This document shows, piece after piece, positions 5,315-33,254 of a stretch of DNA of 33,254 bases. The translations under genes and the position numbers were made by a program. The stretch spans positions 1 through 33,254 of the forward strand of contig JALEKC010000102.1 in assembly GCA_022769325.1 (NCBI GenBank), given 5' to 3'. How positions within the stretch are numbered: the stretch's first letter is position 1; every line of letters begins with the position of its first letter. A model generated the notes under the pieces. The model was not told the DNA's origin, ran no database searches, and was given only the letters and a program-made list of their open reading frames with translations. This stretch comes from Eubacterium sp. GTDB taxonomy: Bacteria > Bacillota > Clostridia > Lachnospirales > Lachnospiraceae.

Positions 5315-5340
5315 GAAAAAAGGGGGCTTTTACTAAAAAC

Positions 5341-17156: not shown

Positions 17157-17185
17157 TAGACATGTCACAAAAATGATGATATACT
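17157..17185 (+). promoter_or_regulatory. Promoter of the transporter cluster
   Basis: TAGACA (17157-17162), a 17-bp spacer and TATACT (17180-17185) form a good sigma-A match. RNA would start near 17192, giving a leader of about 110 bases before the binding-protein gene. The rest of the 292-base divergent gap is A/T-rich, and no operator or cre-type site was recognised. Confidence 0.65.
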
Positions 17186-17225
17186 TAAATACAAACTGTA
17201 TGCAAAATATACAAAGAATTCAAAA

Positions 17226-17265
17226 ATGCGTTTCGCTGCCGCAGTTTTTTTTGTGCGAAACGCAT
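17226..17265. promoter_or_regulatory. Leader hairpin before the 1016-aa binding protein
   Basis: A perfect 11-bp inverted repeat, ATGCGTTTCGC (17226-17236) and GCGAAACGCAT (17255-17265), with an 18-base loop containing eight T. It is more GC-rich than its surroundings. On the plus strand it is followed by A's, so it is not a terminator for this gene. On the minus strand it is followed by TTTTT and could stop antisense RNA heading to GH43. It may be an operator, a leader regulatory hairpin or an RNA-stability element. Confidence 0.6.
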
Positions 17266-17301
17266 AAAAAAGAGAAAGGGCGAAAGGAGATTGCAACAGC
17301 C

Positions 17302-20300
17302 ATGTCAAAGTTGATGAAGAAAAAAGGCTTGGTTAAGTTTCTGGTGTTTGTATTAATACTCGTAGCTATCATAGTATTTTTCAAAATCAAAGGAGCTTCT
17401 TCAAGCGACAACTCCGACAAGTATAAGGGCGTGGATCTGACTGCATCCAATGACTCATATGGACGTGAAGACACATATGCAAAATATGTATCAGAGCACG
17501 AAGATACGAGACCGGCGGGTGAAGAGAACAGCTATGATCTGAATGTGTTAAAATATTCAGACAGCCAAGGTGTTTCTACACGAACAGATGTGGGTCCTTC
17601 CGACGACAAGTCGACGGCATTGCAGATTCCGGAGAAAGGTTATGCACAATTTGAGTTTGATGTGAAAACCGCCGGCTATTACAATGTTTACGTCGAGTAT
17701 TATCCTACAACAGATGAGGATGACCGAGGAATTGATATTGAATCCGAGATTCAGATCAATGGTCAGATTCCATTTAGTGGAGCAGATGCGATTGCATTCG
17801 GCCGTGTTTACACAGATGCCGGAGAAGTGACGCAAGACAACCAGGGGAATGAAATCCGTGCCAAACAGGTACAGGATGAAAAACGTGGTTGGATTTCCAC
17901 TTATTTTGAAGATTCTACCGGATATGAAGCTGAACCGCTTTGTTTCTATTTTAATGCTGGTAAGAATACAATCAAGTTGACGGGTGTCAATGAAAAATTT
18001 GTAATCCGTAAATTGGTTGTAAAGAACAAAGAAGTTACTCCTACATATGAAGAGTATAGTAAAAAGAATGCCAATGCTACCAACAATACGCAGCAGGGGT
18101 ACATTCAAAAAATCCAGGGTGAAACGGCAGTGCGTCGTTCTTCTCCATCTCTCTATGCTACCTATGACAGAACTTCAAGTGAAACGGAATATGAGAACAA
18201 AGACGGTGAGGCAGTGGTTGGAATTACCGATCGTCAGGTTCTTGATATGACCGGTGGTACTCAGTGGAAAGTGCCAAATGATTGGATTGAATGGGATATG
18301 GAAGTGCCTGAGGAAGGTGATTATGTCATTGGAATCAAAGGCCGCCAGGGATATACTCGTGGATATATCGCAAACCGTTCCTTGTATATTGACGGTGAAA
18401 TCCCCTTTGAAGAAGTGAAAGAAATTCAGTTCACATATAGCAATGTATGGCAGATGGTTTGCTTGCAAGATGCCAATGGAAATGCTTACAAGTTCCATTT
18501 GACGAAAGGAAAACATACCATTCGTTTGAAAAATACATTGGGTGAACTTGGTGAATACTTATCTGAATTGTCTGATTGTGTATTTAATATGAACCAGATG
18601 TATCGTCAGATTCTTGTACTTACAGGTACAGAGCCGGATGAATATCGTGATTACCAGATTGAAAAGGTTTATCCTGAAGTTATCACAGCTATGGATTTTG
18701 AATCTAAGAGATTGTATAAACTGGTAGACGAAGTGGTTGCATACACCGGTGAGAAAGGTGGAGAGATTTCTGTAGCACAGACTCTTGCAGCTCAGATGGA
18801 GAAGTTTGTGAAACGCCCGGATAAAATTCCTGGTACGCTTGAGAACTTCAAAAATAATATCAGTTCTCTTGGAACATCCATTAACAACTTGAGTGCAGCC
18901 GCAATGGATATTGATTATATTGTACTTGCAGATGCCAAGGAAACAGTTCCGGAAGTGAAAGAAACACGTTTTGATAAGATGGCACATGAGTGTAAGCTGT
19001 TTGTCAATTCTTTCCGCAGTGATTCTTCTGCTCTTGGTAATGTATACGATTCCGATGATCCGGATGTTCTGGATGTATGGATTACTGCCGGACGTGACCA
19101 GAGTACCATTTTGAAAAACATGGTTGACCAGATGTTCACACCGGAAACAGGAATCAAAGTTAATGTCAAACTGATTGATGCGGCAGCTTCTGCCAATACA
19201 GCAACCTCTGCCAATGGTGCGGTAAATGCTATGCTCCCGGCGGTTATTTCTGGATTTGGTCCGGATGTTGCTTTGTGTATCTCTCAGACAGAGCCTGTAA
19301 ACTATGCACTTCGTAGTGCGGTTGTTGATTTGGCACAGTTTGGCAGTGAAGTGGATGAAGTTCTTTCAGAATATTATCCAAGTTCCTATGAATCCTACAA
19401 GTTCAACGGTGGCCTTTATGGTTTGCCGGAGACACAGAACTACAATGTATTGTTCTATCGTACAGATATTATGGAAGAATTGGGAATTGATGCGGAAAAA
19501 GATGTCAATACATGGGAAGATGTATTGAAAACTCTTCCAATCTTGCAGAAGAACAGTATGTCATTTGCGATTCCTTCTGTGGAACGTAAAATCAACAATG
19601 TAACCAACCCTGACCTTGCAAACTATTATGCACAGTTGTATCAGCGTGGTGGTTCATTATATGATGAAGAGGCAATGGAAACTACGATTGCTTCTCCGGA
19701 AGGTATTGAGGCATTTGAATTCTATACCAAACTCTTTACCAATTATAAATTGGATAAACAGTTTGACTTTAACAACCGTTTCCGTAGTGGTGAAATGCCA
19801 ATCGGATGCGCGGATTATAGTAGCTTTAATACGTTGGCAGTATTTGCTCCTGAGATTAAAGGTCTTTGGAACTTTGGTTTGATTCCTGGTATACAGAAAG
19901 AAGATGGCAGCATCGACCGTTCTGTTCAGTCTTGGGGTACTGCGTCTATGATGCTTCGTGGTGCAGAAGAGCGTAATAAGAAAGACATTGCTTGGCAGTT
20001 TATGAAATGGTGGGCAAGTTCTGAAGTTCAGAGCAATTACGCAAGCGAGTTGGAAGCTGTTATGGGTGCTGCGGCACGTTATGCAACAGCAAACCGCAAC
20101 ACATTTGAAACACTTTCCTGGAGTAGTGAAGAGTCTGCTGCTTTGAAAAAACAGTGGGAATATGCATTTGGTCTTCCGGAAGTGGCTGGTGGTTATTATA
20201 CATCAAGACATATCACCAATGCGATTCGTAAGGTTATGAATGAAAATGAAGATCCAAGAGAGACACTTCTTGATTATGTCATCACAATCAACGATGAGCT

Positions 20301-20352
20301 TACAAACAAACGTGAAGAATTTGGTTTGCCAACGAAAGCAAGTAAAAAATAA
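17302..20352 (+). CDS. Giant membrane-anchored ABC sugar-binding protein with N-terminal beta-sandwich domains
   Basis: A 1016-aa protein, about twice the usual binding-protein length. Residues 6-29 are a single hydrophobic segment (LVKFLVFVLILVAIIVFF) with no lipobox Cys, so it is probably an uncleaved anchor. Two beta-rich domains follow at about 114-230 and 265-430. Both read like carbohydrate-binding sandwiches (AGYYNVYVEYYPT; EGDYVIGIKGRQGYTRGY; the paired KNTIKL and KHTIRL strands). A helical linker covers 430-570. The C-terminal 590-1016 is a family 1 solute-binding fold (ISGFGPDVAL, GLYGLPETQNYNVLFYRTDI, WQFMKWWASSEVQ). I chose ATG 17302 after AAAGGAG (17283-17289). It opens the cluster just before its permeases. 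The xylan-type ligand is inferred from neighbours. Confidence 0.87.
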   Translation: MSKLMKKKGLVKFLVFVLILVAIIVFFKIKGASSSDNSDKYKGVDLTASNDSYGREDTYAKYVSEHEDTRPAGEENSYDLNVLKYSDSQGVSTRTDVGPSDDKSTALQIPEKGYAQFEFDVKTAGYYNVYVEYYPTTDEDDRGIDIESEIQINGQIPFSGADAIAFGRVYTDAGEVTQDNQGNEIRAKQVQDEKRGWISTYFEDSTGYEAEPLCFYFNAGKNTIKLTGVNEKFVIRKLVVKNKEVTPTYEEYSKKNANATNNTQQGYIQKIQGETAVRRSSPSLYATYDRTSSETEYENKDGEAVVGITDRQVLDMTGGTQWKVPNDWIEWDMEVPEEGDYVIGIKGRQGYTRGYIANRSLYIDGEIPFEEVKEIQFTYSNVWQMVCLQDANGNAYKFHLTKGKHTIRLKNTLGELGEYLSELSDCVFNMNQMYRQILVLTGTEPDEYRDYQIEKVYPEVITAMDFESKRLYKLVDEVVAYTGEKGGEISVAQTLAAQMEKFVKRPDKIPGTLENFKNNISSLGTSINNLSAAAMDIDYIVLADAKETVPEVKETRFDKMAHECKLFVNSFRSDSSALGNVYDSDDPDVLDVWITAGRDQSTILKNMVDQMFTPETGIKVNVKLIDAAASANTATSANGAVNAMLPAVISGFGPDVALCISQTEPVNYALRSAVVDLAQFGSEVDEVLSEYYPSSYESYKFNGGLYGLPETQNYNVLFYRTDIMEELGIDAEKDVNTWEDVLKTLPILQKNSMSFAIPSVERKINNVTNPDLANYYAQLYQRGGSLYDEEAMETTIASPEGIEAFEFYTKLFTNYKLDKQFDFNNRFRSGEMPIGCADYSSFNTLAVFAPEIKGLWNFGLIPGIQKEDGSIDRSVQSWGTASMMLRGAEERNKKDIAWQFMKWWASSEVQSNYASELEAVMGAAARYATANRNTFETLSWSSEESAALKKQWEYAFGLPEVAGGYYTSRHITNAIRKVMNENEDPRETLLDYVITINDELTNKREEFGLPTKASKK

Positions 20353-20376
20353 TCAAGAGAGGAGAGTATAGATAGA

Positions 20377-21312
20377 ATGAAGTTTCTTGGAAAGTATATG
20401 CAAATTAAGAAACGGGATATCGGGATTGCCTGGAAGAAGGCAAAGATGTCAAAAACCTGTTATCTGTTCTTATTGCCATATTTTATTCTTTTTGTCACGT
20501 TCTACGTGTTGCCGGTATGTATGTCTGTATTTTACAGTTTTACTTACTACAACGTGTTGGAACCTGCGAAATTTATAGGCGTTGAAAACTATATTGATTT
20601 GCTCCTCAATGATGATGTGTTCCTGATTGCGGTTAAGAATACATTCTTGTTGGCAGCGATTACCGGTCCGCTGGGTTATATCATGGCATTTTTATTTGCC
20701 TGGTTTATCAACGAGTTGCCGCGTTTTGTCCGCGCATTTGCCGTTATGGTATTTTATGCGCCGACAATTTCCGGTCAGGCATATTTGATTTGGTCCATCC
20801 TCTTTAGTGGAGATGCTTATGGATATGTAAACGGATTTTTGCTTAAATTTGGTATTATTAATGAGCCAGTCCTATGGTTGACGGATACCAAGTACATGAT
20901 GAACGTAATTATTATTGTAGTACTTTGGATGAGTCTTGGTACTGGATTCCTTTCCTTTGTAGCTGGTCTGCAGGGTATCGATGCTTCGCAGTTTGAGGCT
21001 GGTTATGTGGACGGTGTCAAAAACCGTTGGCAGGAATTGTGGTACATTACCCTTCCTAATATGAAACCAATGCTTTTGTTTGGTGCCGTTATGGCGATTA
21101 CTCAATCCTTTGGTGTTGCCGATGTAACGATGGCACTTTGCGGATATCCAAGTACGGATTATGCGGCCCGTACCGTAGTTACCCACTTGGTTGACTATGG
21201 TACCACGCGATTTGAGATGGGTTACGCATCAGCGATTGCAACGGTATTGTTCGTAGTTATGATTTTGTGTAACAAGGCGATTCAAGCCTTGCTTAACAAA
21301 GTTGGAACTTGA
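20377..21312 (+). CDS. Sugar ABC transporter permease, MalF/LplB-type (system 1)
   Basis: A 311-aa membrane subunit with about six hydrophobic segments, beginning near residues 29-55 (YLFLLPYFILFVTFYVLP). The coupling (EAA) motif for contact with an ATPase is EAGYVDGVKNRWQELWYITLP near residue 205 (core EAGYVDG). This is the MalF-like partner in family 1 oligosaccharide importers. It lies 24 bases after the giant binding protein and overlaps nothing. The next gene, a MalG-type permease, follows at 17 bases. The lack of an ATPase gene nearby suggests use of a shared one. Confidence 0.94.
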   Translation: MKFLGKYMQIKKRDIGIAWKKAKMSKTCYLFLLPYFILFVTFYVLPVCMSVFYSFTYYNVLEPAKFIGVENYIDLLLNDDVFLIAVKNTFLLAAITGPLGYIMAFLFAWFINELPRFVRAFAVMVFYAPTISGQAYLIWSILFSGDAYGYVNGFLLKFGIINEPVLWLTDTKYMMNVIIIVVLWMSLGTGFLSFVAGLQGIDASQFEAGYVDGVKNRWQELWYITLPNMKPMLLFGAVMAITQSFGVADVTMALCGYPSTDYAARTVVTHLVDYGTTRFEMGYASAIATVLFVVMILCNKAIQALLNKVGT

Positions 21313-21329
21313 TAGGAGGTATAACAACG

Positions 21330-22193
21330 ATGAAATTAATCAAACTCAAAAGGAGAAAGCCAAATCGATCCATTGGTGGAGACATCGGAATTTACATTAT
21401 GTTAATTCTGTTTGGTATATTCTTTGTTATGCCCCTTGTGTATACCATTTGTAGTGCGTTTAAACCATTGGATGAGATTTATCTTTATCCACCAAGTTTT
21501 TTTGTAAAGAACCCGACATTCAATAACTTCCAGGATATGCTGGTTGTTATGTCAAGTTCTTACGTACCTTTTACAAGATACATTTTCAATACTGTATTTA
21601 CCACGTTAGTAGGTACAGTAGGACATTTGATCTTCGGATCAATGGCAGCGTATGTGTTGGCTAAATATAATTTTCCGGGAAGCAAGGGATTCTTCAATCT
21701 TTGTGTAACCGCGATCATGTTTAATGCGTATGTTCTCCAGATTCCTACCTATTTGATCATGTCAAAACTTGGATGGGTAGATACTTATGCCGCACTGATC
21801 GTACCTGCGTTTGCACTTCCTATGGGATTGTTCCTGATGAAGCAGTTCATGGAGCAGATTCCGGATGCGCTGATCGAAGCAGCAAAGATTGACGGTGCGA
21901 AAGAAGGAAGAATCTTCCTTCAGATCGTTATGCCAAACGTAAAACCGGCTTGGCTGACAGTTACAATCTTCTCAGTACAGAACCTTTGGAATATGAAAGG
22001 ACAGATTTATATCTACTCTGAGGAGTTCAAAATGCTTCCCTATGCGCTGCAGCAGATCATGTCTGCCGGTGTTGCCCGTGCGGGTGTAGGTTCCGCGGCA
22101 ACGATGGTAGTTATGATGGTTCCGATCATCATATTCGTAGCAGCCCAGAGTAACATTTTGGAAACAATGGCTAGTTCAGGTATTAAAGACTGA
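21330..22193 (+). CDS. Carbohydrate ABC transporter permease, MalG/AraQ-type (system 1)
   Basis: A 287-aa membrane subunit with about six membrane segments; the first is at about residues 22-45 (YIMLILFGIFFVMPLVYTI). The EAA coupling motif is EAAKIDGAKEGRIFLQIVMP, with core EAAKIDGA. I chose ATG 21330, ten bases after AGGAGG (21314-21319). An in-frame TTG at 21309 lies upstream of that site and is unlikely. It pairs with the preceding permease to form the channel of the first importer. The gene for the NHL protein begins 15 bases downstream. Confidence 0.94.
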   Translation: MKLIKLKRRKPNRSIGGDIGIYIMLILFGIFFVMPLVYTICSAFKPLDEIYLYPPSFFVKNPTFNNFQDMLVVMSSSYVPFTRYIFNTVFTTLVGTVGHLIFGSMAAYVLAKYNFPGSKGFFNLCVTAIMFNAYVLQIPTYLIMSKLGWVDTYAALIVPAFALPMGLFLMKQFMEQIPDALIEAAKIDGAKEGRIFLQIVMPNVKPAWLTVTIFSVQNLWNMKGQIYIYSEEFKMLPYALQQIMSAGVARAGVGSAATMVVMMVPIIIFVAAQSNILETMASSGIKD

Positions 22194-22208
22194 TAAAGGA
22201 GGATAAAA

Positions 22209-23702
22209 ATGAAAGTATGTAAGAAAGTAACATCCGTGTTTGCTCTTGTACTGATCTTGTCTCTCCTTATCGGTGTGACAGGAGCCAGTGCTGCGACAAG
22301 TTCAGATGGAAATCATTATACATATATTTATGACTGCTGGGGTTATGACCGCGAGTCGCCGGATGCTTATTCCGTAACACGTATCATTACGGGTTCGGAT
22401 TATGAGTGTGGTAACTTCAAAGAGCCTCAGGGAATGTATGTAAATGGTACGGATCTTTACATAGCAGATACAGGAAACAATCGTATCGTAAAAATGTCTT
22501 ATCTCAATGATACGATCACACAGACAGGTCTTGTGACAGAGTTTAATAACGGAGATAAGAAAGACACTTTGAGTGGACCACAGGATGTCTTCGTAAGTGA
22601 TGAAGGAGATATGTATATTGCCGACACAGGAAATAAACGTATCGTTCATTTGGACAAAGATAATAATGTCATTAAGATCATTACAAAACCGGATGATGAA
22701 ACTTTTGACCAGACTACAGACTTCCTTCCACAGAAGTTAGTAGTAGATAGTTCAAAACGTATCTTTACACAGGTACAGAACGTAAATAAAGGTTTTATGG
22801 AATTTGCAAGCGACGGATCTTTTACCGGATACGTTGGAGCAAGTAAAGTAACTTATAATATTCTTCAGTATATATGGAAGATGGTTGCAAGTAAAGAGCA
22901 GAGAAGCCAGATGGAACTCTTCGTTCCAACAGAGTACAGTAACCTCTGCCTTGATTCCGAGGGATTTATCTATGCAACAATCGGTAAGACCGGTGAAAAT
23001 GTTGCTCCTCAGAATTCACAGCCAATCCGTAAATTGAATGCCAAAGGAACCGATATCTTGGTTCGTAACGGATACGAAGAGCCTTATGGAGATCTTCGCT
23101 GGACCGAGTCCGGAGAAATGAAAGGTGCTTCTAAATTCGTAGACATTGCTTGTTTGGACAACGATGTATATTATGCACTTGATAATACCAGAGGTCGTGT
23201 TTTTGCTTATGACTTCCAGGGAAATATGTTGTATGCATTTGGTGGTCATGGATACAAAGCAGGATACTTCATTAATCCAATGGCAATTGAGGATCTTGGC
23301 GATACATTGCTCGTTATGGATTCTACATTAGGAACGATCACTCAGTTCACTTTGACAGAATATGGTAAATATATCAATCAGGGATTGAGTGAGTATAAAA
23401 TTGGTGACTATGATGCTTCTGCTGCTACATGGCAGAAAGTATTAAAACTGAATGGTAACTATGATCAGGCGTACATTGGTATTGGTCGTTCTCTCCTCCG
23501 CCAGGAAAGTTATCAGGAAGCCATGGATTACTTTGAATTGAAACTGGATGCAACAAACTATTCCAAAGCATACAAATTGTATCGTAAGGAATGGTTCGAA
23601 AACAACATAATGATCATTTTGATTGTTCTTGCAGTATTGATCGTTGTATGCTTCGGCGTTGGATTTGTGAAGAAGGCTAGAAAGGAGGTAGAGAAAGGAT
23701 GA
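22209..23702 (+). CDS. Membrane-tethered NHL-repeat protein with TPR-like segment
   Basis: A 497-aa exported protein of unknown function. A signal peptide covers residues 1-28 (ending GASA). NHL-type beta-propeller repeats follow from about residue 60 to 385; two clear copies are PQGMYVNGTDLYIADTGNN and PQDVFVSDEGDMYIADTGN. Residues 395-450 form a TPR-like helical pair (YDASAATWQKVLKLNGNY; AYIGIGRSLLRQESYQEAM). A C-terminal membrane helix (about 466-487, IMIILIVLAVLIVVCFGVGF) and a short basic tail anchor it. NHL propellers are usually protein- or ligand-binding platforms. The start after AAAGGAGG is clear, and the stop overlaps the YIP1 gene start (ATGA). Confidence 0.85.
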   Translation: MKVCKKVTSVFALVLILSLLIGVTGASAATSSDGNHYTYIYDCWGYDRESPDAYSVTRIITGSDYECGNFKEPQGMYVNGTDLYIADTGNNRIVKMSYLNDTITQTGLVTEFNNGDKKDTLSGPQDVFVSDEGDMYIADTGNKRIVHLDKDNNVIKIITKPDDETFDQTTDFLPQKLVVDSSKRIFTQVQNVNKGFMEFASDGSFTGYVGASKVTYNILQYIWKMVASKEQRSQMELFVPTEYSNLCLDSEGFIYATIGKTGENVAPQNSQPIRKLNAKGTDILVRNGYEEPYGDLRWTESGEMKGASKFVDIACLDNDVYYALDNTRGRVFAYDFQGNMLYAFGGHGYKAGYFINPMAIEDLGDTLLVMDSTLGTITQFTLTEYGKYINQGLSEYKIGDYDASAATWQKVLKLNGNYDQAYIGIGRSLLRQESYQEAMDYFELKLDATNYSKAYKLYRKEWFENNIMIILIVLAVLIVVCFGVGFVKKARKEVEKG

Positions 23703-24364
23703 GTATAAAACAACGTGTTTTCAATAAAGAAAGCTGGAGTGCTTATCTTGGATCACTTCGTTATGCATTACACTGTTGTGTTCGTCCTTTTGACGGCTTT
23801 TGGGATTTGACTCATGAAAAGAGAGGATCTGTAGGAGCAGCTAATACAATCGTTATTTTGGTGTTACTTACAAATCTTTTAAAACTCGGTTTTACCAGTT
23901 TTATTTTCCAACCAGTCAATTGGAATGAAGTTAACCTTCTTTTAGAGATTATGACATTTTTGCTTCCGTTTGCAGTCTATTGTGTAGCAAACTGGTGTCT
24001 GACAACTTTGTTTGAAGGAAAAGGTACATTGAAAGATATTTATATGGGAACCGCTTATGCGATGACACCATATGTATTGATTCAGCTTCCTTTGATCGTA
24101 TTAAGTAACGTAGTAACAGAAGAAGAGGGTGCATTTTACACCTATTTTGGATATTTCTCCATGGTATGGTGTGGACTTTTGATCATGGCATCTGTCATGA
24201 TGATCCACGACTTCCTTTTGGGAAAAGCGTTTGCATCACTCGTTTTCACAGGAGTCGGTATGTTGGTTATCGTATTCCTGCTGGTTCTCTTCTTTAGTTT
24301 GATAAGTGATGGTTTCTCATATTTCTACTCGATTTATAAAGAAATCATTTACAGATTCTATTAA
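23699..24364 (+). CDS. YIP1-family multi-pass membrane protein
   Basis: A 221-aa integral membrane protein with about five hydrophobic segments (roughly residues 48-70, 80-100, 120-143, 150-172 and 180-207). It opens with a soluble stretch, RYALHCCVRPFDGFWDLTHEKRGS (core RPFDGFWDL), typical of bacterial Yip1-domain proteins. The YxGTAYAMTPYV-like block, here YMGTAYAMTPYVLIQLP, is the family hallmark. The bacterial function is unknown. Its coupling to the NHL gene (ATGA overlap) and its place next to the lipoprotein gene suggest the three products act together. Confidence 0.82.
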   Translation: MSIKQRVFNKESWSAYLGSLRYALHCCVRPFDGFWDLTHEKRGSVGAANTIVILVLLTNLLKLGFTSFIFQPVNWNEVNLLLEIMTFLLPFAVYCVANWCLTTLFEGKGTLKDIYMGTAYAMTPYVLIQLPLIVLSNVVTEEEGAFYTYFGYFSMVWCGLLIMASVMMIHDFLLGKAFASLVFTGVGMLVIVFLLVLFFSLISDGFSYFYSIYKEIIYRFY

Positions 24365-24387
24365 TTGGAAGGAGGGCAATGTTAAGA

Positions 24388-26958
24388 ATGAAAAAGAAAT
24401 TTGGTTTGCTTTTAGTTGCTGCGCTGGCTTCCTTCGCTTTAGTAGGTTGTGGTGATTCAGCCTCGAGTTATAAAGAATTGACATCTTATACAAACGAAGA
24501 TAGTCAAGAAGTTACCATTAGCAATAGTTCTTTGGAGCTTACTGTTGATAAAGATACGACAACATTCGTATTAAAAGATAAGAAGAATGGTAAGGAATAC
24601 CGTTCCAACCCTTCTTCAGAAGATATCGAAAAGTATGCAAATGCCAAAGGACAGTTAAAAGAAATGTTGAATGCAACCCTTCTTGTGAAGTATTCCAATA
24701 AAACGGATACACAGAAGGATATCAACAATTATAGCCAGTCCATTTTGGATGGCAACTATAAGATTGAAAAAGTAAGCGATGACACAGTAGCGGTTCATTA
24801 CACCATTGGAGATATCGAGAAATTGTACGTATGTCCATTGGTTATTAAAGAATCTTCTATGAAGAAACTTTTGGAGCAGATGTCAAAATCTGATCAGAGC
24901 CGTGTGACACGTAATTATGTTCATTATGATTATGAAGAACTGAGCGAGTCAGATGACGATACAGAACTTCAGCAGGCATTGGAAAAATTCCCTGATCTTA
25001 AAGATGAGCCGATTTATTACTTATCTGAAAAGATCACAGATTCCAAAGCAAAACAGTTGGAAGAAATGTTTACTAAGGTTGGTTATACTGAAGAACAGCG
25101 TAACAAAGACAGCGAGGGATACAATGTTTCCCGTAATGCCGGAAAGCCGATCTTTGATGTTACCGTACAGTATATACTGGATGGTGACCAACTGGTTGTA
25201 AAAGTACCGATGGAACAGATTGAATATAATACAGATTATCCAATCGTTGAACTTTCTGTTCTTCCTTACATGGGAGCCGGAAACACAGATGAAAGTGGTT
25301 ATGTTCTTGTTCCGGACGGAAGTGGTGGAATTATCAACTTCAACAACGGAAAGACAACACAGCAGACGTATCTTGCGGATATGTATGGATGGGACTACGG
25401 TACAAGCAGAGATATGGTTGTCGATGAGACAAGAGCAACCTATCCGGCATTTGTGGTATCCAATACGACAAATACAAGTTCCTTTATCTGCGTATCCGAA
25501 GAGGGAAGCGCTTACTCTAGTGTAAAAGCGGATGTCGCTGGAAAAGAAAATGGTTATAACTATGGACGTTTTGTTTACAAGATGATTCATGGTGAAAACA
25601 TGGACATTTCTTCAAAATCCGATACAACGGTTCGTTCTTATGAAGCAAGTCTTCCGAAAGAAACGTTGACACAGCGTTATATTTTCTCTGATAAAACAGA
25701 TTATGTAAGTGCAGCAGGAACATATCGTGATTATTTGACAAATCGTTATCCGGAACTGGTTAAGAAAGAAGATACAACCGTGCCAATGGCAGTTGAACTT
25801 CTTGGTGCCGTAGATAATATCGAACATGTTCTCGGTTATCCGGTTACCCGTTCCCTTGCATTGACTACGTATTCACAGGCTCAGGATATTTTGAAGCAAT
25901 TGAAAGGTGCCGGCGTAGAAAATATCAAAGCCAAATATACCGGCTGGTTTAATACCGGTGTGAAGCAGAAATCTGCCGCAAAGGTAAAATTGGTTGGACG
26001 TTTGGGCAGCAAGAGTGATTTATCAAGTCTTGCGACTTATGCAAATGCGACAGAAGGTCTTGATCTGTTCATGAATGCAAAATTCACTTATGTAATGAAA
26101 GACAAATTAGGTGATGGATTTGGAGTAAACCGCGATGCGGCAAAATTTGTAAGCCGTGAGATTGCAGAATTGTATACACTGGATCCAATTATTTACCAGA
26201 CAAATGAAGATTACGAAAACTGTGATCGTTACTATCTGGTAAAACCATCCTATACAATTGCGAACATTGACAAATATGTAAATACAATTTCTTCCTCTTA
26301 TGGAGTTAAGAATGTTGGATTTGAAGATATTGGAAACACTCTTGCCGGAGACTACAATCCAAAGGATCGTGTATCTCGTGAAGCTTCAATGAACATGCAG
26401 GTTGATAAGATGAAAGCATTGAAGGAATCCGGAAGTCTTGTAATGACAACAACCGGTAACCAGTATGCGGTTCCGTATTCTGACTATGTAACAGATATGG
26501 ATATTGACAGCAAAGCCGTTAATATCATCGATGAATCGGTTCCATTTTATCAGATCGCACTTCATGGTCTTGTAAATTATTCCGGAAGCGCAATCAACCT
26601 CTCCGAGGATGAGACTGATATGATCTTGAAATCTGCAGAGACAGGTGCCGGACTGTACTTCACATTTATGAATCAGCCGACAAGTGTATTGCAGGATACA
26701 GATTATACGCAGTATTATGCATGTAACTTCACAGACTGGAAAGATACAACTATTGAATTGTATAAGAAATTTAATAACAATCTTGGTGATACATACAGTC
26801 AGTTCATTACAGGACATGAAAAACTTGCAAATGGTGTTTATAAGACAACTTATGAAAATGGTAAGTCTGTCATTGTAAACTACAATTATGCAGATTATGA
26901 TTACAATGGAACAAAAGTTCCTCAGAGAGACTTTATCACAACAGGAGGTGGAAAATAA
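24388..26958 (+). CDS. DUF5696-like lipoprotein, putative glycosidase-fold
   Basis: An 856-aa surface lipoprotein: signal peptide with lipobox LVGC, lipidated C21. The N-terminal 400 residues are beta-rich (VTISNSSLELTVDKDTTTFVLKDKKNGKEYRSNP, in part TTTFVLKDKKNGKEYRSN), like the sandwich domain that precedes many glycosidase barrels. From about 450 to 770, alternating beta/alpha segments include YSQAQDILKQLKGAGVENI, VKNVGFEDIGNTLAGDY and FYQIALHGLVNYSGSAINLS. A closing beta segment is VIVNYNYADYDYNGTKVP. I recognise this as the DUF5696 type found beside such transporters. Hydrolase function is inference. ATG 24379 is also in frame, but it sits only three bases after the GGAGG; 24388 fits better. 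Confidence 0.75.
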   Translation: MKKKFGLLLVAALASFALVGCGDSASSYKELTSYTNEDSQEVTISNSSLELTVDKDTTTFVLKDKKNGKEYRSNPSSEDIEKYANAKGQLKEMLNATLLVKYSNKTDTQKDINNYSQSILDGNYKIEKVSDDTVAVHYTIGDIEKLYVCPLVIKESSMKKLLEQMSKSDQSRVTRNYVHYDYEELSESDDDTELQQALEKFPDLKDEPIYYLSEKITDSKAKQLEEMFTKVGYTEEQRNKDSEGYNVSRNAGKPIFDVTVQYILDGDQLVVKVPMEQIEYNTDYPIVELSVLPYMGAGNTDESGYVLVPDGSGGIINFNNGKTTQQTYLADMYGWDYGTSRDMVVDETRATYPAFVVSNTTNTSSFICVSEEGSAYSSVKADVAGKENGYNYGRFVYKMIHGENMDISSKSDTTVRSYEASLPKETLTQRYIFSDKTDYVSAAGTYRDYLTNRYPELVKKEDTTVPMAVELLGAVDNIEHVLGYPVTRSLALTTYSQAQDILKQLKGAGVENIKAKYTGWFNTGVKQKSAAKVKLVGRLGSKSDLSSLATYANATEGLDLFMNAKFTYVMKDKLGDGFGVNRDAAKFVSREIAELYTLDPIIYQTNEDYENCDRYYLVKPSYTIANIDKYVNTISSSYGVKNVGFEDIGNTLAGDYNPKDRVSREASMNMQVDKMKALKESGSLVMTTTGNQYAVPYSDYVTDMDIDSKAVNIIDESVPFYQIALHGLVNYSGSAINLSEDETDMILKSAETGAGLYFTFMNQPTSVLQDTDYTQYYACNFTDWKDTTIELYKKFNNNLGDTYSQFITGHEKLANGVYKTTYENGKSVIVNYNYADYDYNGTKVPQRDFITTGGGK

Positions 26959-27870
26959 ATGAAACGTCAGAAGAAGAAAAAAACTCTTGCATTTAAGAAT
27001 GCAGTAGCAGGATACTTGTTTATTTTACCATTTATCCTTGGTTTTATTCTGTTCATGGTTGTTCCGTTGATTAGTTCTTTGCGAATGACATTTAATGATG
27101 TAACTCCTGTTGCCAGTGAAGGTGTAAAAATGACCTGGGTTGGTATCAAGAATTACAAAGATGCTTTTACCGTTGACCCGGATTTTGTACCTTACTTACT
27201 GAGTGAGTTGCTCCGAATGGTAGTAAATACACCAGCAACATTGATCTTCAGTTTCTTTATTGCATTGCTGTTGAACCAGAATTTCAAAGGAAGAGGAGTT
27301 GTCCGTGCGATATTCTTCCTTCCGGTTATTCTTTCATCCGGTGTAATTGTAGGTATTGAATACAACAATGAGTTGCTGAACGATATGAAAGATATGATTT
27401 CTAAGACATCCAATGATGCCAGTGTTACCGGGGTGCTGGAGAGCATTCTGGTAACGTCAGATAGCAGCCCGATGTCGAAGATGTTCCAATATGTATTTGA
27501 TATCATCAACAAAGTTTATGATATCGCGATTGCATCTGGTATCCAGATCATCATGTTCCTTTCTGCTTTGCAGACAATCTCGCCAAGTATGTTTGAGGCT
27601 GCAAAGATTGAGGGATGTACCGCATGGGAAAGTTTCTGGAAGATTACCTTCCCTATGGTAAGTTCAATGATACTTGTAAACGTAGTTTATACCGTAATCG
27701 ACTTCTTCTTGAAGACCGACAACCAGGTTATGACGAAGATTTCGGAAGAGGTAGGAAAGTTAAGTTATGGATTTAGTTCGGCGATGGCTTGGATATACTT
27801 CCTATGCGTAATTCTTATACTTGGAATTGTTTCGCTGATTATTTCTAAGAGGGTGTACTATTATGAATAA
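26959..27870 (+). CDS. Sugar ABC transporter permease, MalF-type (system 2)
   Basis: A 303-aa membrane subunit with about six hydrophobic segments; the first is GYLFILPFILGFILFMVVPL (about residues 18-37). The EAA coupling motif is EAAKIEGCTAWESFWKITFP near residue 215 (core EAAKIEGC). A longer polar loop (about 133-185, KDMISKTSNDASVTGVLES) separates segments 3 and 4, as in some LplB-like permeases. It starts right after the DUF5696-like gene stop, with GGAGGTGG inside that gene. It overlaps the next permease by eight bases, so the pair is coupled. Confidence 0.93.
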   Translation: MKRQKKKKTLAFKNAVAGYLFILPFILGFILFMVVPLISSLRMTFNDVTPVASEGVKMTWVGIKNYKDAFTVDPDFVPYLLSELLRMVVNTPATLIFSFFIALLLNQNFKGRGVVRAIFFLPVILSSGVIVGIEYNNELLNDMKDMISKTSNDASVTGVLESILVTSDSSPMSKMFQYVFDIINKVYDIAIASGIQIIMFLSALQTISPSMFEAAKIEGCTAWESFWKITFPMVSSMILVNVVYTVIDFFLKTDNQVMTKISEEVGKLSYGFSSAMAWIYFLCVILILGIVSLIISKRVYYYE

Positions 27871-28861
27871 GAAGAACAAATTAAAGACCTTTATCGAACG
27901 AAACAAAAAATCCAATGGCTACTTACTGCGCAAAACATCGTTCAACGTATTTTACAAAGTCATTCGTTTTGTATTGTTGTTTGGATTATGTTTCATGATT
28001 TTACAGCCATTGTTGAACAAAATTTCCATTAGTTTCATGGAAGAGCAGGATTTGTATGATTCAACAATTGTTGCAATCCCAAGACATTTTACTTTGAGCA
28101 ATTATCAAATTGCTGCTTATTTGATGAAGTATTGGCAGGCATTGGCAAACACAGCATTGATTTCACTTCTTGTCAGTGTATTGCAGATTATTTCTTGTAC
28201 ATTGGTAGGTTATGGATTTGCACGTTACAAATTTCCGCTGAAAGGACTTTGGTTCGCAGCCGTAATTCTTGTAATCGTTGTTCCTCCTACAACAATTCAG
28301 GCGTCCTTGTTCCTGAATTTCCGATTCTTTGATATCTTCGGTATCATTGAATTGATCACCGGACAACCTGGTGTAAACTTATTGAATTCTTTGACACCAT
28401 ATGCTTTGATGTGTCTTGGCTGTATGGGTCTGAAGAGTGGTTTGTACATTTACATGATTCGTCAGTTCTTCCGTGGAATTCCAAAAGAATTGGAAGAAGC
28501 TGCTTATGTGGATGGATGTGGAAAATTGTCAACATTCGTTCGTATCATGTTACCGGATGCAAAACCAATTTTGACATCTTGTTTCCTGTTTTCTTACGTA
28601 TGGCAGTGGACAGATTCCTTCTATTCAAACCTGTTTTTGAATTCCGAATTTGTTCTGTTGTCCAGTAAGTTAAATGGTATCGCCGGAGCACTGGATAGTT
28701 ATCTGGATGTCCGCGGTATCGCAAAGAAAGCGACTACAGCTTATTCACAGGGAATGATCGCAACAGGTACATTGATGGTGATTTTACCATTGATCATTAT
28801 TTATCTGTTTGCCCAGAAAGGTTTCGTAGAAAGTTTGAGCCAGTCTGGTATCAAGATGTAA
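27863..28861 (+). CDS. Carbohydrate ABC transporter permease, MalG-type (system 2)
   Basis: A 332-aa membrane subunit, longer than the usual 280-300 because of a charged N-terminal stretch of about 30 residues (MNKKNKLKTFIERNKKSNGY). About six membrane segments follow, the first near residues 35-52. The EAA motif is EAAYVDGCGKLSTFVRIMLP (core EAAYVDGC). It ends QSGIKM, close to the SSGIKD end of the first MalG-type permease, suggesting an ancient duplication of permease pairs. The gene overlaps its upstream partner, and a 336-base gene-free gap follows. Confidence 0.93.
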   Translation: MNKKNKLKTFIERNKKSNGYLLRKTSFNVFYKVIRFVLLFGLCFMILQPLLNKISISFMEEQDLYDSTIVAIPRHFTLSNYQIAAYLMKYWQALANTALISLLVSVLQIISCTLVGYGFARYKFPLKGLWFAAVILVIVVPPTTIQASLFLNFRFFDIFGIIELITGQPGVNLLNSLTPYALMCLGCMGLKSGLYIYMIRQFFRGIPKELEEAAYVDGCGKLSTFVRIMLPDAKPILTSCFLFSYVWQWTDSFYSNLFLNSEFVLLSSKLNGIAGALDSYLDVRGIAKKATTAYSQGMIATGTLMVILPLIIIYLFAQKGFVESLSQSGIKM

Positions 28862-28890
28862 CATACGCGAATCAAGCACAGGATTTATTG

Positions 28891-29010
28891 AGGGGGGAGA
28901 GGCAAAAAACTGCGTAGCAGTTTCCGATATCAACGATATTGCTGCAAGCTTGCTTGCAAAGCAGATATCGTTGATATCGGAGAAAAGCCTTTGGCTTTTT
29001 TGCCTCTGCC
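28891..29010. repeat. Cloverleaf-like inverted-repeat element
   Basis: An outer stem, GAGGCAAAAAA (28899-28909) and TTTTTTGCCTC (28996-29006), encloses three hairpins. The first is ACTGC/GCAGT around GTA (28909-28921). The second is long, with 16 perfect base pairs (28924-28939 with 28965-28980, starting CCGATATC), capped by CTGC/GCAG. The third is AAGCC/GGCTT around TTT (28985-28997). The overall plan is a four-way junction. It lies in the 336-base gap between a permease and the second binding-protein gene. No coding sequence is seen. It may be a mobile palindromic unit or an mRNA processing/stability structure. Confidence 0.82.
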
Positions 29011-29050
29011 ACTCCCAGAGAGAAAGCCTGTATTTGATGAGTAACATCAT

Positions 29051-29123
29051 GAGCGAAGGGCGTCAGCCCGGAGCGAATGTAAAAAGTGACATTGAGTGAA
29101 GGGCGTCAGCCCGGAGCGAATGT
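29051..29123. repeat. Two tandem 30-bp repeats with inner hairpin
   Basis: A 30-base unit occurs at 29051-29080 and again at 29094-29123 (43-base period), differing at one base: GAGCGAAGG versus GAGTGAAGG at the start. Each unit contains the small palindrome GGGC-GTCA-GCCC and ends GGAGCGAATGT. It directly follows the cloverleaf-like element in the same gene-free gap. With only two copies and no array structure, it is not a CRISPR. Confidence 0.8.
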
Positions 29124-29197
29124 CCAAAATTATGTAGTTATCACTGCGTCCTTGGTGGGCACAGTGTAACGATAAAAAATAAGGAGGTAAAAAAATT

Positions 29198-30628
29198 ATG
29201 AAAGCAAACACGAAAAAATTGCTTGCAATGGGTCTCTCTGTAGTTCTTGCTGTTGGATGTCTGACCGGTTGTGGAGGCGATAGTAACTCTTCTTCCACTA
29301 GCGGCGATACAGCGAAGACGGGAGACGAAGGTGGATCTTCCAGCAGCAAAAAAACTTTTGATGATTTGGGAGGCATGTCTATCAAAATTGGTGACTGGTA
29401 TACTTCTGAAGATGCAGGAGAAACAGATTATGCCAAAGCTACAGAAAATTACAGAAAGGAAATCATGGATAAGTACAACTTCAAGATTAATCGTGAAAGT
29501 GCTTACTCCTACACTGACCAGCAGGAGACATACGTAAACGGCGTTATGTCAAACAGTCCTTCTTGCCAGTTGTTCTATCTGTATCAGGAAATGGTTTCTG
29601 CACCTTTGATGAAAGGTTTGATGTATGACCTGAAAACACTTCCTGAATTCGATTTCACAGAAGAGAAATGGAATCAGACCGTTGTTGAACTTATGAGCAT
29701 CGGTAATGGTATCTGGGGTATGAGCCCTGAGAACGAGCCACGTGGTGGTGTGTTCTTTAATAAACGTATGTTGAAAGAAGCCGGTATCGGTGAAGAAGAA
29801 CCATACGACCTTCAGAGAGATGGAAAATGGACATGGTCCAAATTTGAAGAGTATTGTAAGAAACTTACTGTAGATGCAGATGGAGATGGTAAAACAGATC
29901 AGTATGCACTTGCTAGTTTCTCAAAATACTACCTTCCTCTGTGTGCTGCAAACAACAATGCAACATTCGTTTCCCGTGACAAAGACGGAAGCTACCAGAA
30001 TGCTACAGGATCCAAAGAATTCCTCGAAGCTATGAACTGGGGTATGAGCCTTATGGACAAGGGTTATATCATGCCAAAACCAGACGGAGCTGCATGGGAT
30101 TGGTATAAAGCAGCATTCCGTGATGGTGAAGTTGCAATGCAGACAGCTGAAGTTTATGAGATCAGCGCATTCGCTAGTATGGAAGATGACTGGGGATTCG
30201 TTATGTTCCCATACAACGAAAAGAACAAAGGTGCTACAAACAAGACTACTCCAAACGACAACATTGTTGTTATGCCTAGCTGCTTTAGTGCAGAAGAAGC
30301 TGAAAAGATCGCATTTGCTTATGATCTTTACACAGAAGCTACACCAGGCTATGATTTGGATGATGCTTGGAAACAGACATACTATGATCAGTTCAGAGAT
30401 GACCGTGCTGTAGACGAGACTTTGACAATGATGCACGAGCAGGAGCACATTCAGACATCTTATCTGCCACTTATCAATGACCTTGATTATGGTGATTTCT
30501 GTTATGCAGTATATGCTGGTGCTACAACTCCTGCGAAGAAGATCGAAGCAATTTCTTCAAAATGGGATAGCAAGATCAGTGATATGAATAAGAAGTATGC
30601 AAACTTTGCAGCTTCCCATTCTAAATAA
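29198..30628 (+). CDS. ABC sugar-binding lipoprotein (system 2)
   Basis: A 476-aa extracellular solute-binding protein of family 1. The signal peptide ends in lipobox LTGC with lipidated C25, followed by a Ser/Gly/Thr-rich linker (residues 28-50). The binding fold then runs to the end (SPSCQLFYLYQEMV; NGIWGMSPENEPRGGVFFNKRML; DGEVAMQTAEVYEI; MFPYNEKNKG). An EF-hand-like loop, DADGDGKTDQYA, lies near residue 226 and probably binds calcium, as in other hemicellulose-binding members. The start after AAGGAGG (about 29181-29187) is clear. It is unusual that the binding protein comes last in its operon, behind a structured gap. Ligand by context: an aldouronic acid or xylo-oligosaccharide. Confidence 0.93.
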   Translation: MKANTKKLLAMGLSVVLAVGCLTGCGGDSNSSSTSGDTAKTGDEGGSSSSKKTFDDLGGMSIKIGDWYTSEDAGETDYAKATENYRKEIMDKYNFKINRESAYSYTDQQETYVNGVMSNSPSCQLFYLYQEMVSAPLMKGLMYDLKTLPEFDFTEEKWNQTVVELMSIGNGIWGMSPENEPRGGVFFNKRMLKEAGIGEEEPYDLQRDGKWTWSKFEEYCKKLTVDADGDGKTDQYALASFSKYYLPLCAANNNATFVSRDKDGSYQNATGSKEFLEAMNWGMSLMDKGYIMPKPDGAAWDWYKAAFRDGEVAMQTAEVYEISAFASMEDDWGFVMFPYNEKNKGATNKTTPNDNIVVMPSCFSAEEAEKIAFAYDLYTEATPGYDLDDAWKQTYYDQFRDDRAVDETLTMMHEQEHIQTSYLPLINDLDYGDFCYAVYAGATTPAKKIEAISSKWDSKISDMNKKYANFAASHSK

Positions 30629-30777: not shown

Positions 30778-32802
30778 ATGAATTATACAAAATGCTGGCT
30801 GGATTATAAGCCATTAGCGAAAGATAAGATCCGACCATGTTATTTGAATCCAGTATTGCTTGCATCAGGAGAGATTGCACAGACAATCGCAGAAGAATAC
30901 AAGACGGCGATGTCTGTCATGCTTGGAGAGACGGTGGAAATGTCTTATGAGGTACTGGAAGAACCGTCTGTTTTTATGCAGATACAGAAAGAGTATGAGT
31001 TCCCGGATGAAAAAGGAAAAGGACATAGCACGGAGGTGCTGAATCAGGCGTTTGCCATTTATGAGGAAGAGGAGAGCATTGTGATCACAGGAAGAACAGA
31101 GACCGCAGTGCTGCAGGGAGTATTTGCTTTTTTGCGTATGGTAGCTCTTGACAATCTTTTTGAAAAAATGCCGTATTACTGCATCCCATCTATGCCGTTT
31201 CGCATGATGAATCATTGGGATGATATGGATGGAAGTATTGAACGAGGATACTCAGGAAGATCATTTTTTTATGATGATTACAAAATTCTTTATAACGACC
31301 GCACAGAGATGTATGCGCGATTGATGGCATCCATTGGAATCAATGCCATTGTCATCAATAATGTAAATGTTCATGAAAAGGAAACATACCTTATCACAGA
31401 TGTGTATTTGAAACAAGTAAAACAATATACCGATCTGTTTGCCAGATATGGAATTCGTCTGTTTATGAGTGTTAATTTTGCGGCTCCGATGGAACTTAGT
31501 GATATTCCGGTTTCGGATCCACTTGACCCGCAGGTAATTGCCTGGTGGGGAAAAGCCGTGGCACACGTTTATGAGGTGATTCCAAATTTTGGAGGATTTT
31601 TGGTAAAGGCAGATTCCGAAGGTCGTCCTGGTCCATTTACTTATGGACGTACGCATGCGGATGGAGCCAATATGCTTGCGAAAGTGCTGAAACCATATGG
31701 CGGAACCGTCGTTTGGAGATGTTTTGTTTACAACTGTGGACAAGACTGGCGTGATAAAAAGACGGACCGTGCAAGAGCAGCTTACGATCATTTTATGAAT
31801 CTGGATGGAACGTTTGATGACAATGTCATTTTACAGATTAAAAACGGACCGATGGATTTTCAGGTTCGTGAGCCGGTTTCCCCATTGTTTGGCGGGCTGA
31901 AAAAGACAAATATGATGTTAGAAGTGCAGATTGCACAGGAGTATACCGGTCAGCAGATTGATCTCTGCTACCTGATTCCGATGTGGAAAGAAATCCTAGA
32001 CTTTGATACGTATGGCGATGGAGAGGGTACGACCGTAGAGAAAGTTGTTTCAGGACATGCTTACAATCAGGTCCATTGCGGTATGGCAGGTGTTATAAAT
32101 ACCGGAGACGATGAGAACTGGACCGGAAATGATCTTGCGGCAGCAAACATGTATGGATTTGGCCGCCTTGCGATGGATACCAGTCTGACAGCAGAAGAGA
32201 TTGCAGAAGAATGGAGCCGGTTGTCTCTGGCAGACGACAAAGAGGTGACGGATGTTGTCGTACCGATGCTCTGTGGTTCCTGGGCAACGTATGAAAAGTA
32301 CAATGCACCGCTTGGCATTGGCTGGATGGTAACTCCACATTATCATTACGGACCGGATGTCGATGGCTATGAATACGACCGCTGGGGTACGTATCATCGC
32401 GCGGATCTTCATGGAATCGGAGTAGATCGTACGATGGAAGGAACCGGTTATGTGTCCCAGTACAATGAACCTTGGAGAAGCATTTATGCAGATACGGAGA
32501 AATGTCCGGAAGAGTTATTGTTGTTCTTCCATCATATTCCGTATACGTATATGTTAAAAACCGGAAAAACTTTGATCCAGCATATCTATGACACTCATTT
32601 CGAAGGAGTGGAAGAGGTAGAGGCGATGCAGAAAGCATGGCAGGGATTAAAAGGAAAAGTGTCTGACCGCGCATTTGACTGTGTGTCAGAGCGTTTTGAA
32701 AGACAGCTTGTAAATGCAAAAGAGTGGCGTGACCGCGTAAATACGTATTTTTATAGAAAATGCGGTATCACTGATGAAAAAAACAGAAAAATTTATGACT
32801 AA
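30778..32802 (+). CDS. aguA: Alpha-glucuronidase, glycoside hydrolase family 67
   Basis: A 674-aa cytoplasmic enzyme that removes (4-O-methyl)glucuronic acid from the non-reducing end of aldouronic acids made from glucuronoxylan. An N-terminal beta-domain (about 1-130) precedes the TIM barrel. Catalytic candidates fit the family: acid E281 in VKADSEGRPGPFTYGR (core KADSEGRPGP), and the D360 (KNGPMDFQVREP) and E382 (MMLEVQIAQEYTG) pair that activates water. Their spacing agrees with characterised bacterial GH67 enzymes. No signal peptide is present, so the substrate must be imported. uxuA follows 23 bases downstream. The start is ATG 30778 after GGAG. Confidence 0.96.
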   Translation: MNYTKCWLDYKPLAKDKIRPCYLNPVLLASGEIAQTIAEEYKTAMSVMLGETVEMSYEVLEEPSVFMQIQKEYEFPDEKGKGHSTEVLNQAFAIYEEEESIVITGRTETAVLQGVFAFLRMVALDNLFEKMPYYCIPSMPFRMMNHWDDMDGSIERGYSGRSFFYDDYKILYNDRTEMYARLMASIGINAIVINNVNVHEKETYLITDVYLKQVKQYTDLFARYGIRLFMSVNFAAPMELSDIPVSDPLDPQVIAWWGKAVAHVYEVIPNFGGFLVKADSEGRPGPFTYGRTHADGANMLAKVLKPYGGTVVWRCFVYNCGQDWRDKKTDRARAAYDHFMNLDGTFDDNVILQIKNGPMDFQVREPVSPLFGGLKKTNMMLEVQIAQEYTGQQIDLCYLIPMWKEILDFDTYGDGEGTTVEKVVSGHAYNQVHCGMAGVINTGDDENWTGNDLAAANMYGFGRLAMDTSLTAEEIAEEWSRLSLADDKEVTDVVVPMLCGSWATYEKYNAPLGIGWMVTPHYHYGPDVDGYEYDRWGTYHRADLHGIGVDRTMEGTGYVSQYNEPWRSIYADTEKCPEELLLFFHHIPYTYMLKTGKTLIQHIYDTHFEGVEEVEAMQKAWQGLKGKVSDRAFDCVSERFERQLVNAKEWRDRVNTYFYRKCGITDEKNRKIYD

Positions 32803-32825: not shown

Positions 32826-33254
32826 ATGGAAATGACATTGAGATGGTATGGCGAAGGAAATGACAGTGTAACCTTGGAGCAGATTCGCCAGATCCCGGGA
32901 GTAGCAGGAGTTATCACAGCACTTCATGATATCCCAGCAGGAGAGGCTTGGACTTATGAAGATGTAATGAAGAGAAAACAGGAAGTAGAAGCCAAAGGTC
33001 TTAAACTGTGCGGTGTAGAAAGTATCAACGTACATGAAGATATCAAGATCGGACTTCCTACCAGAGATAAATTGATCGAAGATTATTGTAAATCTTTGGA
33101 AGCCGTTGGAAAAGCAGGCATTCACCTTGTATGTTACAACTTCATGCCTGTTTTTGACTGGACAAGAACGGATCTTGCGATGCCTTTAGAGGATGGATCT
33201 ACAGCACTTGCTTATGATTCTTCTATTATCGATGGTATCGATGCCAGTGAAATG
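32826..33254 (+). CDS. uxuA: Mannonate dehydratase, N-terminal part (cut by window edge)
   Basis: The first 143 codons. UxuA dehydrates D-mannonate to 2-keto-3-deoxygluconate, the last hexuronate-specific step of glucuronate breakdown. The opening MEMTLRWYGEGNDSVTLEQI (in part LRWYGEGND), IPGVAGVITALHDIPAGEAW and CYNFMPVFDWTRTDL are family hallmarks. It starts at ATG 32826, preceded by AAGGAAAGGAAG. Its place right after GH67 links release of glucuronic acid to its catabolism. UxaC and UxuB would be needed for the steps between, and they are not in the window. Confidence 0.95.
   Translation, partial: MEMTLRWYGEGNDSVTLEQIRQIPGVAGVITALHDIPAGEAWTYEDVMKRKQEVEAKGLKLCGVESINVHEDIKIGLPTRDKLIEDYCKSLEAVGKAGIHLVCYNFMPVFDWTRTDLAMPLEDGSTALAYDSSIIDGIDASEM

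Follow-up and report, generated by a model that had tools for sequence, protein, structure and literature searches.

The window analysed here, a stretch of 33,254 nt from a Eubacterium sp. of the Lachnospiraceae, is contig C175 in its entirety; the genome, which is incomplete, amounts to 2.28 Mb over 193 contigs. The window carries a carbohydrate import locus in which two MalF/MalG-type permease pairs (pore 1, MalF1/MalG1; pore 2, MalF2/MalG2) and two solute-binding proteins (SBP1 and SBP2) accompany three genes not expected of an importer, encoding an NHL, a YIP1 and a DUF5696 protein (the trio). The plus-strand order, after a divergent glycoside hydrolase (GH) family 43 gene, is SBP1-MalF1-MalG1-NHL-YIP1-DUF5696-MalF2-MalG2-SBP2-GH67-UxuA; thus, the same-strand run of two binding proteins and two permease pairs with three genes in between, reported in a preliminary description of this DNA, was found as nine genes in their places. 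Pfam recognised SBP_bac_1, four BPD_transp_1, NHL, Yip1 and DUF5696 among the window proteins, all over cut-off. The first eight of these genes recur in the same order in most of the related loci surveyed. The reading that we favour, at about even chances, is that the locus is one copy of a widespread carbohydrate import system of class CUT1 (carbohydrate uptake transporter 1) made of two halves, with the trio acting as a platform that links them.

Conservation of the gene set

The survey covered 140 loci, all fetched by DUF5696: 80 contigs from GTDB (the best 80 of 517 relatives, with at least 590 stretches matched), 40 loci of the same family and 20 of other families of the phylum, the last two sets being hand-picked from the DUF5696 matches, with open reading frames (ORFs) chosen by profile matches. 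Lachnospiraceae, Oscillospiraceae, Butyrivibrio, Anaerocolumna and others were represented among the GTDB contigs, together with nine contigs of Treponema. The eight-gene core, SBP1-F-G-NHL-YIP1-DUF5696-F-G, was detected in order and on one strand in 106/140 loci, allowing for the fusion of NHL and YIP1 as a single ORF (23/140), and 16 loci agree with it until the contig end. The other 18 differ. Among these, L153 holds a GH129-type enzyme outside the DUF5696 family proper; a split or partial binding-protein ORF takes the place of SBP1 in L098, L105 and L111; one upstream permease ORF is missing in L092 and L141; L160, L161 and L162, from families f65 and f50, have no SBP1-F-G before a fused NHL-YIP1; and in L165 malG1 is interrupted by a foreign 442-aa ORF (around 4684-6012, minus strand) that looks like an insertion-sequence transposase.

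As an independent test, the YIP1 and NHL profiles were searched separately in 200 genomes of the family, taking as DUF5696 those matches above 160 bits. YIP1 and NHL matches appeared in the identical 43 genomes, every one with DUF5696, which was found in these 43 and in G030; the genomes are related by descent, and counts are given rather than a probability. DUF5696 lay within 3 kb on the same strand of 73/76 YIP1 and 70/74 NHL matches, and YIP1 within 3 kb of 73/76 DUF5696 matches. Three unmatched places in G173 do contain DUF5696 and permeases, with the full core in two and the third cut by the contig end, and in G051:C171 the contig stops inside the NHL gene after SBP2-SBP1-F-G. The DUF5696 matches without YIP1 were G016:C189 (a partial match), G051:C156 and G030. 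In the wider phylum, 37/398 genomes gave a DUF5696 match at E 1e-40. As the preliminary description had supposed, the trio thus belongs with transporters, DUF5696 being followed by permeases in nearly all loci read. The trio is known here from genes alone, which is what could be said for chance neighbours or hitchhiking genes; the conserved order and the same 43/200 genomes led us to reject this explanation, to which we attach practically no probability.

The eight core proteins also diverge together, with pairwise identities that rank alike at Spearman coefficients of 0.92-0.96 in the 79 loci having all nine genes, figures that include the contribution of species descent; SBP2 follows the core at 0.85-0.89. 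Against DUF5696, the coefficients were 0.93-0.96 for SBP1, MalF1 and MalG1, and 0.92-0.93 for MalF2 and MalG2. Between modules of one genome, the correlation with DUF5696 was 0.89 for SBP1 (15 pairs), 0.84 for NHL (29), 0.82 for MalF2 (30), 0.80 for YIP1 (29), 0.78 for MalG1 (17) and 0.68 for MalF1 (17), and was not clear for SBP2 (0.48, 14 pairs, p 0.085). Mean identities decrease from MalF1 (0.62) and MalG1 (0.59) through MalG2 (0.50), MalF2 (0.49), SBP1 (0.47), YIP1 (0.44), NHL (0.43) and DUF5696 (0.37) to SBP2 (0.31). This co-divergence shows inheritance as a unit, not contact.

A published operon of Caldicellulosiruptor bescii, xloEFG-X-GH129-axoFGE-xynF-..., corresponds to this arrangement. 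It is differentially expressed on xylan and Avicel, with up-regulation on xylan, and is assigned to XynR and AraR (PMC8579813); all 25 genes of the XynR regulon are up on xylan versus cellobiose, and deletion of msmK impairs growth on xylan (PMC8579813). The XynR operator is printed before Athe_0174 (PMC12285236). When this 20-mer was searched in seven f92 genomes, allowing up to three mismatches, a single exact occurrence was detected in three of them. It precedes the SBP1 ORF by around 150 nt in L190 and 90 nt in L192, followed in both by F, G, a fused NHL-TPR-YIP1, DUF5696, F, G and a binding protein, and in G521 its distance to DUF5696 agrees with these two loci. Because the published operator precedes such modules in L190 and L192, we take the C. 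bescii "X" as NHL-YIP1 and its "GH129" as DUF5696, in such a way that the gene order of the window is that of the C. bescii operon (Table 3 of PMC8579813). The portions of that paper cited here do not discuss the trio. The preliminary description knew of no function assigned to this gene combination, which holds for the NHL-YIP1 gene, called just "X", and fails for the rest, as the transporters are named and the DUF5696 gene carries the label GH129 (PMC8579813).

The window and its proteins

The features of the locus are as follows.
15417..17009, minus strand: GH43 family glycosidase, probable beta-xylosidase, divergent neighbour (Pfam GH43, 324 bits, plus GH43_C2; N-terminus not strongly hydrophobic)
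17226..17265, plus strand: 11-nt perfect inverted repeat with a T-run between its arms, in the SBP1 leader (17186-17305, fold z -2.9)
17302..20352, plus strand: SBP1, 1016 aa (ORF 17173-20352, likely start ATG 17302), with an N-terminal transmembrane (TM) helix
20377..21312, plus strand: MalF1 permease (BPD_transp_1; its EAA loop exceeds that of the three remaining window permeases by one residue)
21309..22193, plus strand: MalG1 permease (BPD_transp_1, EAA motif)
22209..23702, plus strand: exported NHL beta-propeller (Pfam NHL), then tetratricopeptide (TPR) repeats, then a C-terminal TM helix
23699..24364, plus strand: YIP1-family membrane protein with five hydrophobic segments (Pfam Yip1, PF04893, 37.3 versus a cut-off of 28.6 bits)
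24379..26958, plus strand: DUF5696 lipoprotein with a GH129-type glycosidase fold (ORF of 859 aa, or 856 aa when counted from the ATG that follows; lipobox VGCG)
26959..27870, plus strand: MalF2 permease (BPD_transp_1, EAA motif)
27863..28861, plus strand: MalG2 permease (BPD_transp_1, EAA motif)
28885..29025, plus strand: very stable hairpin between malG2 and SBP2 (-69.5 kcal/mol, z -8.9, 0/200 shuffles as good)
29198..30628, plus strand: SBP2, lipoprotein solute-binding protein, distant relative of the arabino-oligosaccharide-binding protein 6RJY
30778..32802, plus strand: GH67 alpha-glucuronidase (N-terminus not strongly hydrophobic)
32826..33254, plus strand: UxuA mannonate dehydratase, truncated by the contig end

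From MalF1 to MalG2 the genes are separated by gaps of 0-15 nt or overlap by 4-8 nt, with gaps of 24 nt between SBP1 and MalF1 and of 336 nt between MalG2 and SBP2. The inverted repeat in the SBP1 leader is a possible operator or attenuator. Two 36-nt direct repeats (29050-29128) lie 3' of the malG2/SBP2 hairpin, a feature absent from the preliminary description that may set the dosage of SBP2. A second copy of the locus, on contig C134 (L003 1-20000), has the same gene order, a 93%-identical DUF5696 and a sequence related to this hairpin at the equivalent place, and extends past UxuA to a gene of the mannitol-dehydrogenase family, probably UxuB; this copy could well reflect strain variation within a composite genome rather than a recent duplication or an independent paralogue. 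Elsewhere in the window (9295-9499, minus strand), partly overlapping matches to the Rfam Clostridiales-1 and GA-cis RNAs were found.

The trio proteins have largely the features first described for them. In the NHL protein, a signal-like N-terminus precedes the NHL repeats and a TM helix lies at the C-terminus; it also has TPR repeats, which had been missed (TPR_16, 33.0 versus a cut-off of 32.7). YIP1 shows the five segments and the ATGA overlap with NHL that had led to its description as a coupled five-pass protein, and the third is the 856-aa lipoprotein announced, counted from the next ATG. The YIP1 family profile gave no match at E 1 against PDB sequences, and no signalling domain was found by Pfam in the three proteins of the window.

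DUF5696 cannot be regarded as a protein without known relatives, since it carries the fold of the GH129 glycosidases, a relationship that the preliminary description had not noted. The nucleophile of NagBb (5WZN), Asp435, corresponds to Asp650 here, and Thr691 occupies the position of NagBb Glu478, which we take to be the GH129 acid/base. The position of NagBb Asp330 and the LHLDGW segment are not preserved in the DUF5696 profile alignments. The protein was not filed as GH129 because the acid/base residue is missing, and we infer that DUF5696 is a GH129-fold glycan-binding protein, usually non-catalytic. The Pfam DUF5696 model also scores GH129-type enzymes over cut-off (12 aligned; the profile matches 5wzn), so that counts by that model alone overstate the family.

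In CUT1 transport, MalFG pores work with a shared MsmX-type ATPase. SBP1 (model pLDDT, the predicted local distance difference test, 86.7) has a C-terminal MalE-type domain and an N-terminal half with two beta-sandwich regions and a helical region; the fold-search matches are dominated by the MalE-like domain, so that the N-terminal half was barely probed. Pfam matches to this half in 28 relatives were weak (Golvesin_C 8, GH115_C 4, CBM_35 3, CBM_6 2) and hint only faintly at a CBM-like identity of the beta-sandwich regions. All four permeases have the EAA loop. In MalF1 ten residues separate its Gly from the I-x-L/I-P end in 112/114 modules, while nine do so in 113/114 MalG1, 112/133 MalF2 and 115/133 MalG2, and ten in none of these. 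Seven of 27 other permeases of the surveyed loci also have ten, all seven matching best the MalF1 profile and sitting in loci whose module was outside the 114 counted. Among 19 BPD_transp_1 matches in the source genome, where for L213 a neighbouring ORF was read instead, the ten-residue loop was detected only in the MalF1 of the window, and four lacked the motif. SBP2 matches no Pfam family at E 1e-3, and matches 6RJY at 1.4e-9. No ATPase gene was found inside the operon; a UgpC/MsmX-type ATPase is encoded elsewhere in the genome (G000:C51; 505.5 bits, cut-off 432). The stretches of the 140 relatives contained three ABC (ATP-binding cassette) ATPase-like ORFs (L063, L092, L174), with 79-86 bits against the C51 ATPase.

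GH67 and UxuA act on glucuronoxylan products, and the cargo of the window module is likely a glucuronoxylan-derived oligosaccharide. The glucuronoxylan-like cargo that the preliminary description proposed thus suits this copy, with GH67 and UxuA downstream and GH43 upstream, and does not extend to the trio in general. Beside near modules (83 proteins scanned) we found GH10 (16), GH3 (13), GH43 (8), GH67 (3) and GH115 (1), and beside those of the wider set (84 proteins) GH43 (9), GH130 (6), melibiase (5), GH3 (3), GH26, GH31, fucosidase and apiosidase (2 each) and GH10 (1); the GH130, melibiase, GH26, apiosidase and fucosidase neighbours led us to reject a glucuronoxylan-specific trio. The 17 GH10-like matches have a hydrophobic N-terminus in six cases and lack it in nine of 321-337 aa and in two longer ones; cytoplasmic endo-xylanases of this kind would imply the entry of chains of some length.

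Separable halves and the competing explanations

In the wider phylum, 12 genomes from five families were searched (G261, G334, G364, G438, G300, G239, G281, G540, G529, G379, G404, G583), and SBP1 and NHL were both detected in all 12. Most compact loci read, lacking an adjacent pore 1, consist of a fused NHL-YIP1, DUF5696, MalF2, MalG2 and SBP2 (for example L220, L222, L223, L240 and L242-L244), L238 having a different order. Nine of 40 SBP1 matches had no NHL nearby; six were read, the other three being in the fragmented G281. The six are stand-alone SBP1-MalF1-MalG1 units with the long EAA loop, one each in G261, G300, G239, G334, G364 and G438 (L232-L237), whose SBP1 proteins are 57-85% identical among themselves and 44-50% to SBP1 of the full modules of G300 and G540, and which look like one conserved unit. 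In G438, the single NHL and the single SBP1 are on different contigs, and C161 may end near the module. The partner constantly found with the trio is therefore pore 2, and SBP1 together with pore 1 forms a half that can separate, yet was present in 12/12 genomes. The preliminary description joined the trio and the giant binding protein SBP1 in one putative surface complex; in other families, that protein and pore 1 can be encoded away from the trio.

In the arrangement that we favour, the constant half would be the membrane-tethered SBP1 with pore 1, as suggested by its being the best-conserved pore, by the distinctive MalF1 loop and by its standing alone in some families beside several trio modules. 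The substrate-specific half would comprise NHL-TPR, YIP1, DUF5696, pore 2 and the variable SBP2, adjoining glycosidases for the glycan concerned. The NHL propeller and DUF5696, outside and held on YIP1 in the membrane, would form a docking platform that faces outward, holds long or branched chains close to the pores and joins one half to the other, with the trio tied to pore 2 and SBP1 with pore 1 as common partner. A shared MsmX/UgpC-type ATPase encoded elsewhere would hydrolyse ATP; in the cytoplasm, GH67 and GH43 would cleave the imported glucuronoxylan oligosaccharide, and its glucuronate would pass to UxuA. A bolder, hub-and-spokes form of this proposal, which we consider rather unlikely, is that every trio module needs SBP1-MalF1-MalG1, adjacent in most genomes and supplied in trans from a single copy in f65 and f50, in such a way that two pores and a pseudo-glycosidase platform make one machine for plant glycan chains longer than the usual CUT1 cargo.

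Several observations weigh against the favoured arrangement. In the 12 genomes, a same-strand SBP1 lies within 10 kb of only 31/68 NHL matches, and compact modules are common in families f65 and f50, which rules out a strict linkage of both pores. No YIP1 ORF was detected in L112, L126, L156 and L172 (the last being further broken up), and L134 shows YIP1-DUF5696-F-G without NHL, with a contig end downstream. The XynR operator was not found within three mismatches in the other four f92 genomes, despite their DUF5696. Co-divergence and shared genomes would be equally expected from the transfer of a compact operon with separately acting parts. In C. bescii, two separate transporters are recognised under the names XloEFG and AxoFGE (PMC8579813), which favours the alternative that one operon often unites two importers that are independent and differ in specificity, with the trio serving pore 2 only, for example as a docking or assembly factor. 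The existence of both compact modules and stand-alone units fits this alternative, as do L167, L170 and L171, where SBP1-F-G is placed downstream and the trio stays with pore 2. By contrast, SBP1 accompanies the trio in 12/12 genomes searched for both, and co-divergence with DUF5696 is as close for SBP1, MalF1 and MalG1 as it is for MalF2 and MalG2. The compact modules took our confidence in the linked halves from slightly better than even to even, and made the separate importers a real contender that we would still bet against, a little less strongly than before.

The nucleophile-equivalent Asp, kept in 85/140 DUF5696 proteins including that of the window, also counts against a binding platform and agrees with an active surface alpha-glycosidase related to GH129, trimming alpha-linked side groups so that the backbone enters, with NHL-YIP1 as its anchor. 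The fold, the GH129 label in Table 3 of PMC8579813 and the activity of ZGAL_3152, which keeps just one of the two catalytic residues of NagBb, Asp435 (PMC5698469), point in the same direction. Glu at position 691, however, is found in just 17/140 proteins, both residues in 8/140 and neither in 35/140, one or both being gone in 132/140; together with the loss of the Asp330 position and LHLDGW segment, this makes an enzyme unlikely in our view. Alternatively, the trio could stand apart from transport and act as a sensor that reports external glycan to gene control: NHL propellers and TPRs are contact-making domains, and directly before YIP1-DUF5696 in L134 are two genes with response-regulator-like and membrane-sensor-like N-termini. 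The lack of Pfam signalling domains in the trio and the permeases placed directly after it in most loci (regulators were not counted) make this very improbable.

Comparison with known systems

The transporter class and one operon of the module's order are already known. Searches of open-licence PubMed Central (PMC) papers for DUF5696 and for combinations of terms gave no hits, and showed no earlier account of the module as recurring, of a GH129 relationship in which active-site residues are lost, of the compact/stand-alone split or of the MalF1 loop, the last two not being targets of these searches. Plant-degrading Bacillota of the gut and rumen, and thermophilic ones, inherit the three genes and the second pore together with an importer, and the same is seen in the nine Treponema contigs. 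Should the trio take part in transport, a well-known class of importers would have an accessory apparatus that has gone unrecognised, DUF5696 would gain a fold and a testable role, and the YIP1 proteins of bacteria a context open to experiment; the shared-partner idea can be tested directly in genomes that combine several compact modules with one stand-alone SBP1-MalF1-MalG1.

The C. bescii operon shares with the window a binding protein, two permeases, X, GH129, two permeases and a binding protein, followed by glycosidases (PMC8579813). In C. bescii-type loci NHL-YIP1 is one ORF, with a GH43 gene next in L190, whereas the window has two genes, with GH67 and UxuA next. Compared with the reference GH129 glycosidases NagBb (general background in PMC8106489) and the GH129-like ZGAL_3152 (5OPQ), the DUF5696 protein of the window differs in Thr691 at the acid/base position, in its membrane anchor and in being encoded with a transporter. 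L153 and L197 resemble the module in a GH129-like gene adjoining one MalFG pair and a binding protein, but no NHL or YIP1 was found in them; L153 falls in the NagBb-like set (the profile of that set gives 999.9 bits for 5wzn), and L197 (G030) encodes, next to a single ABC transporter, a GH129-like protein of 560 aa.

The usual sugar importer needs one binding protein, one pore and one ATPase. The module shares with CUT1 importers served by an MsmX/MsmK ATPase its MalE-type binding proteins, its MalF/MalG permeases with EAA loops and an operon without the ATPase, and differs from them in its two pore pairs, three extra genes, longer MalF1 EAA loop and TM-tethered SBP1 with beta-sandwich domains. 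The SusCD systems of Bacteroidota would be the counterpart in role of the proposed two-pore machine.

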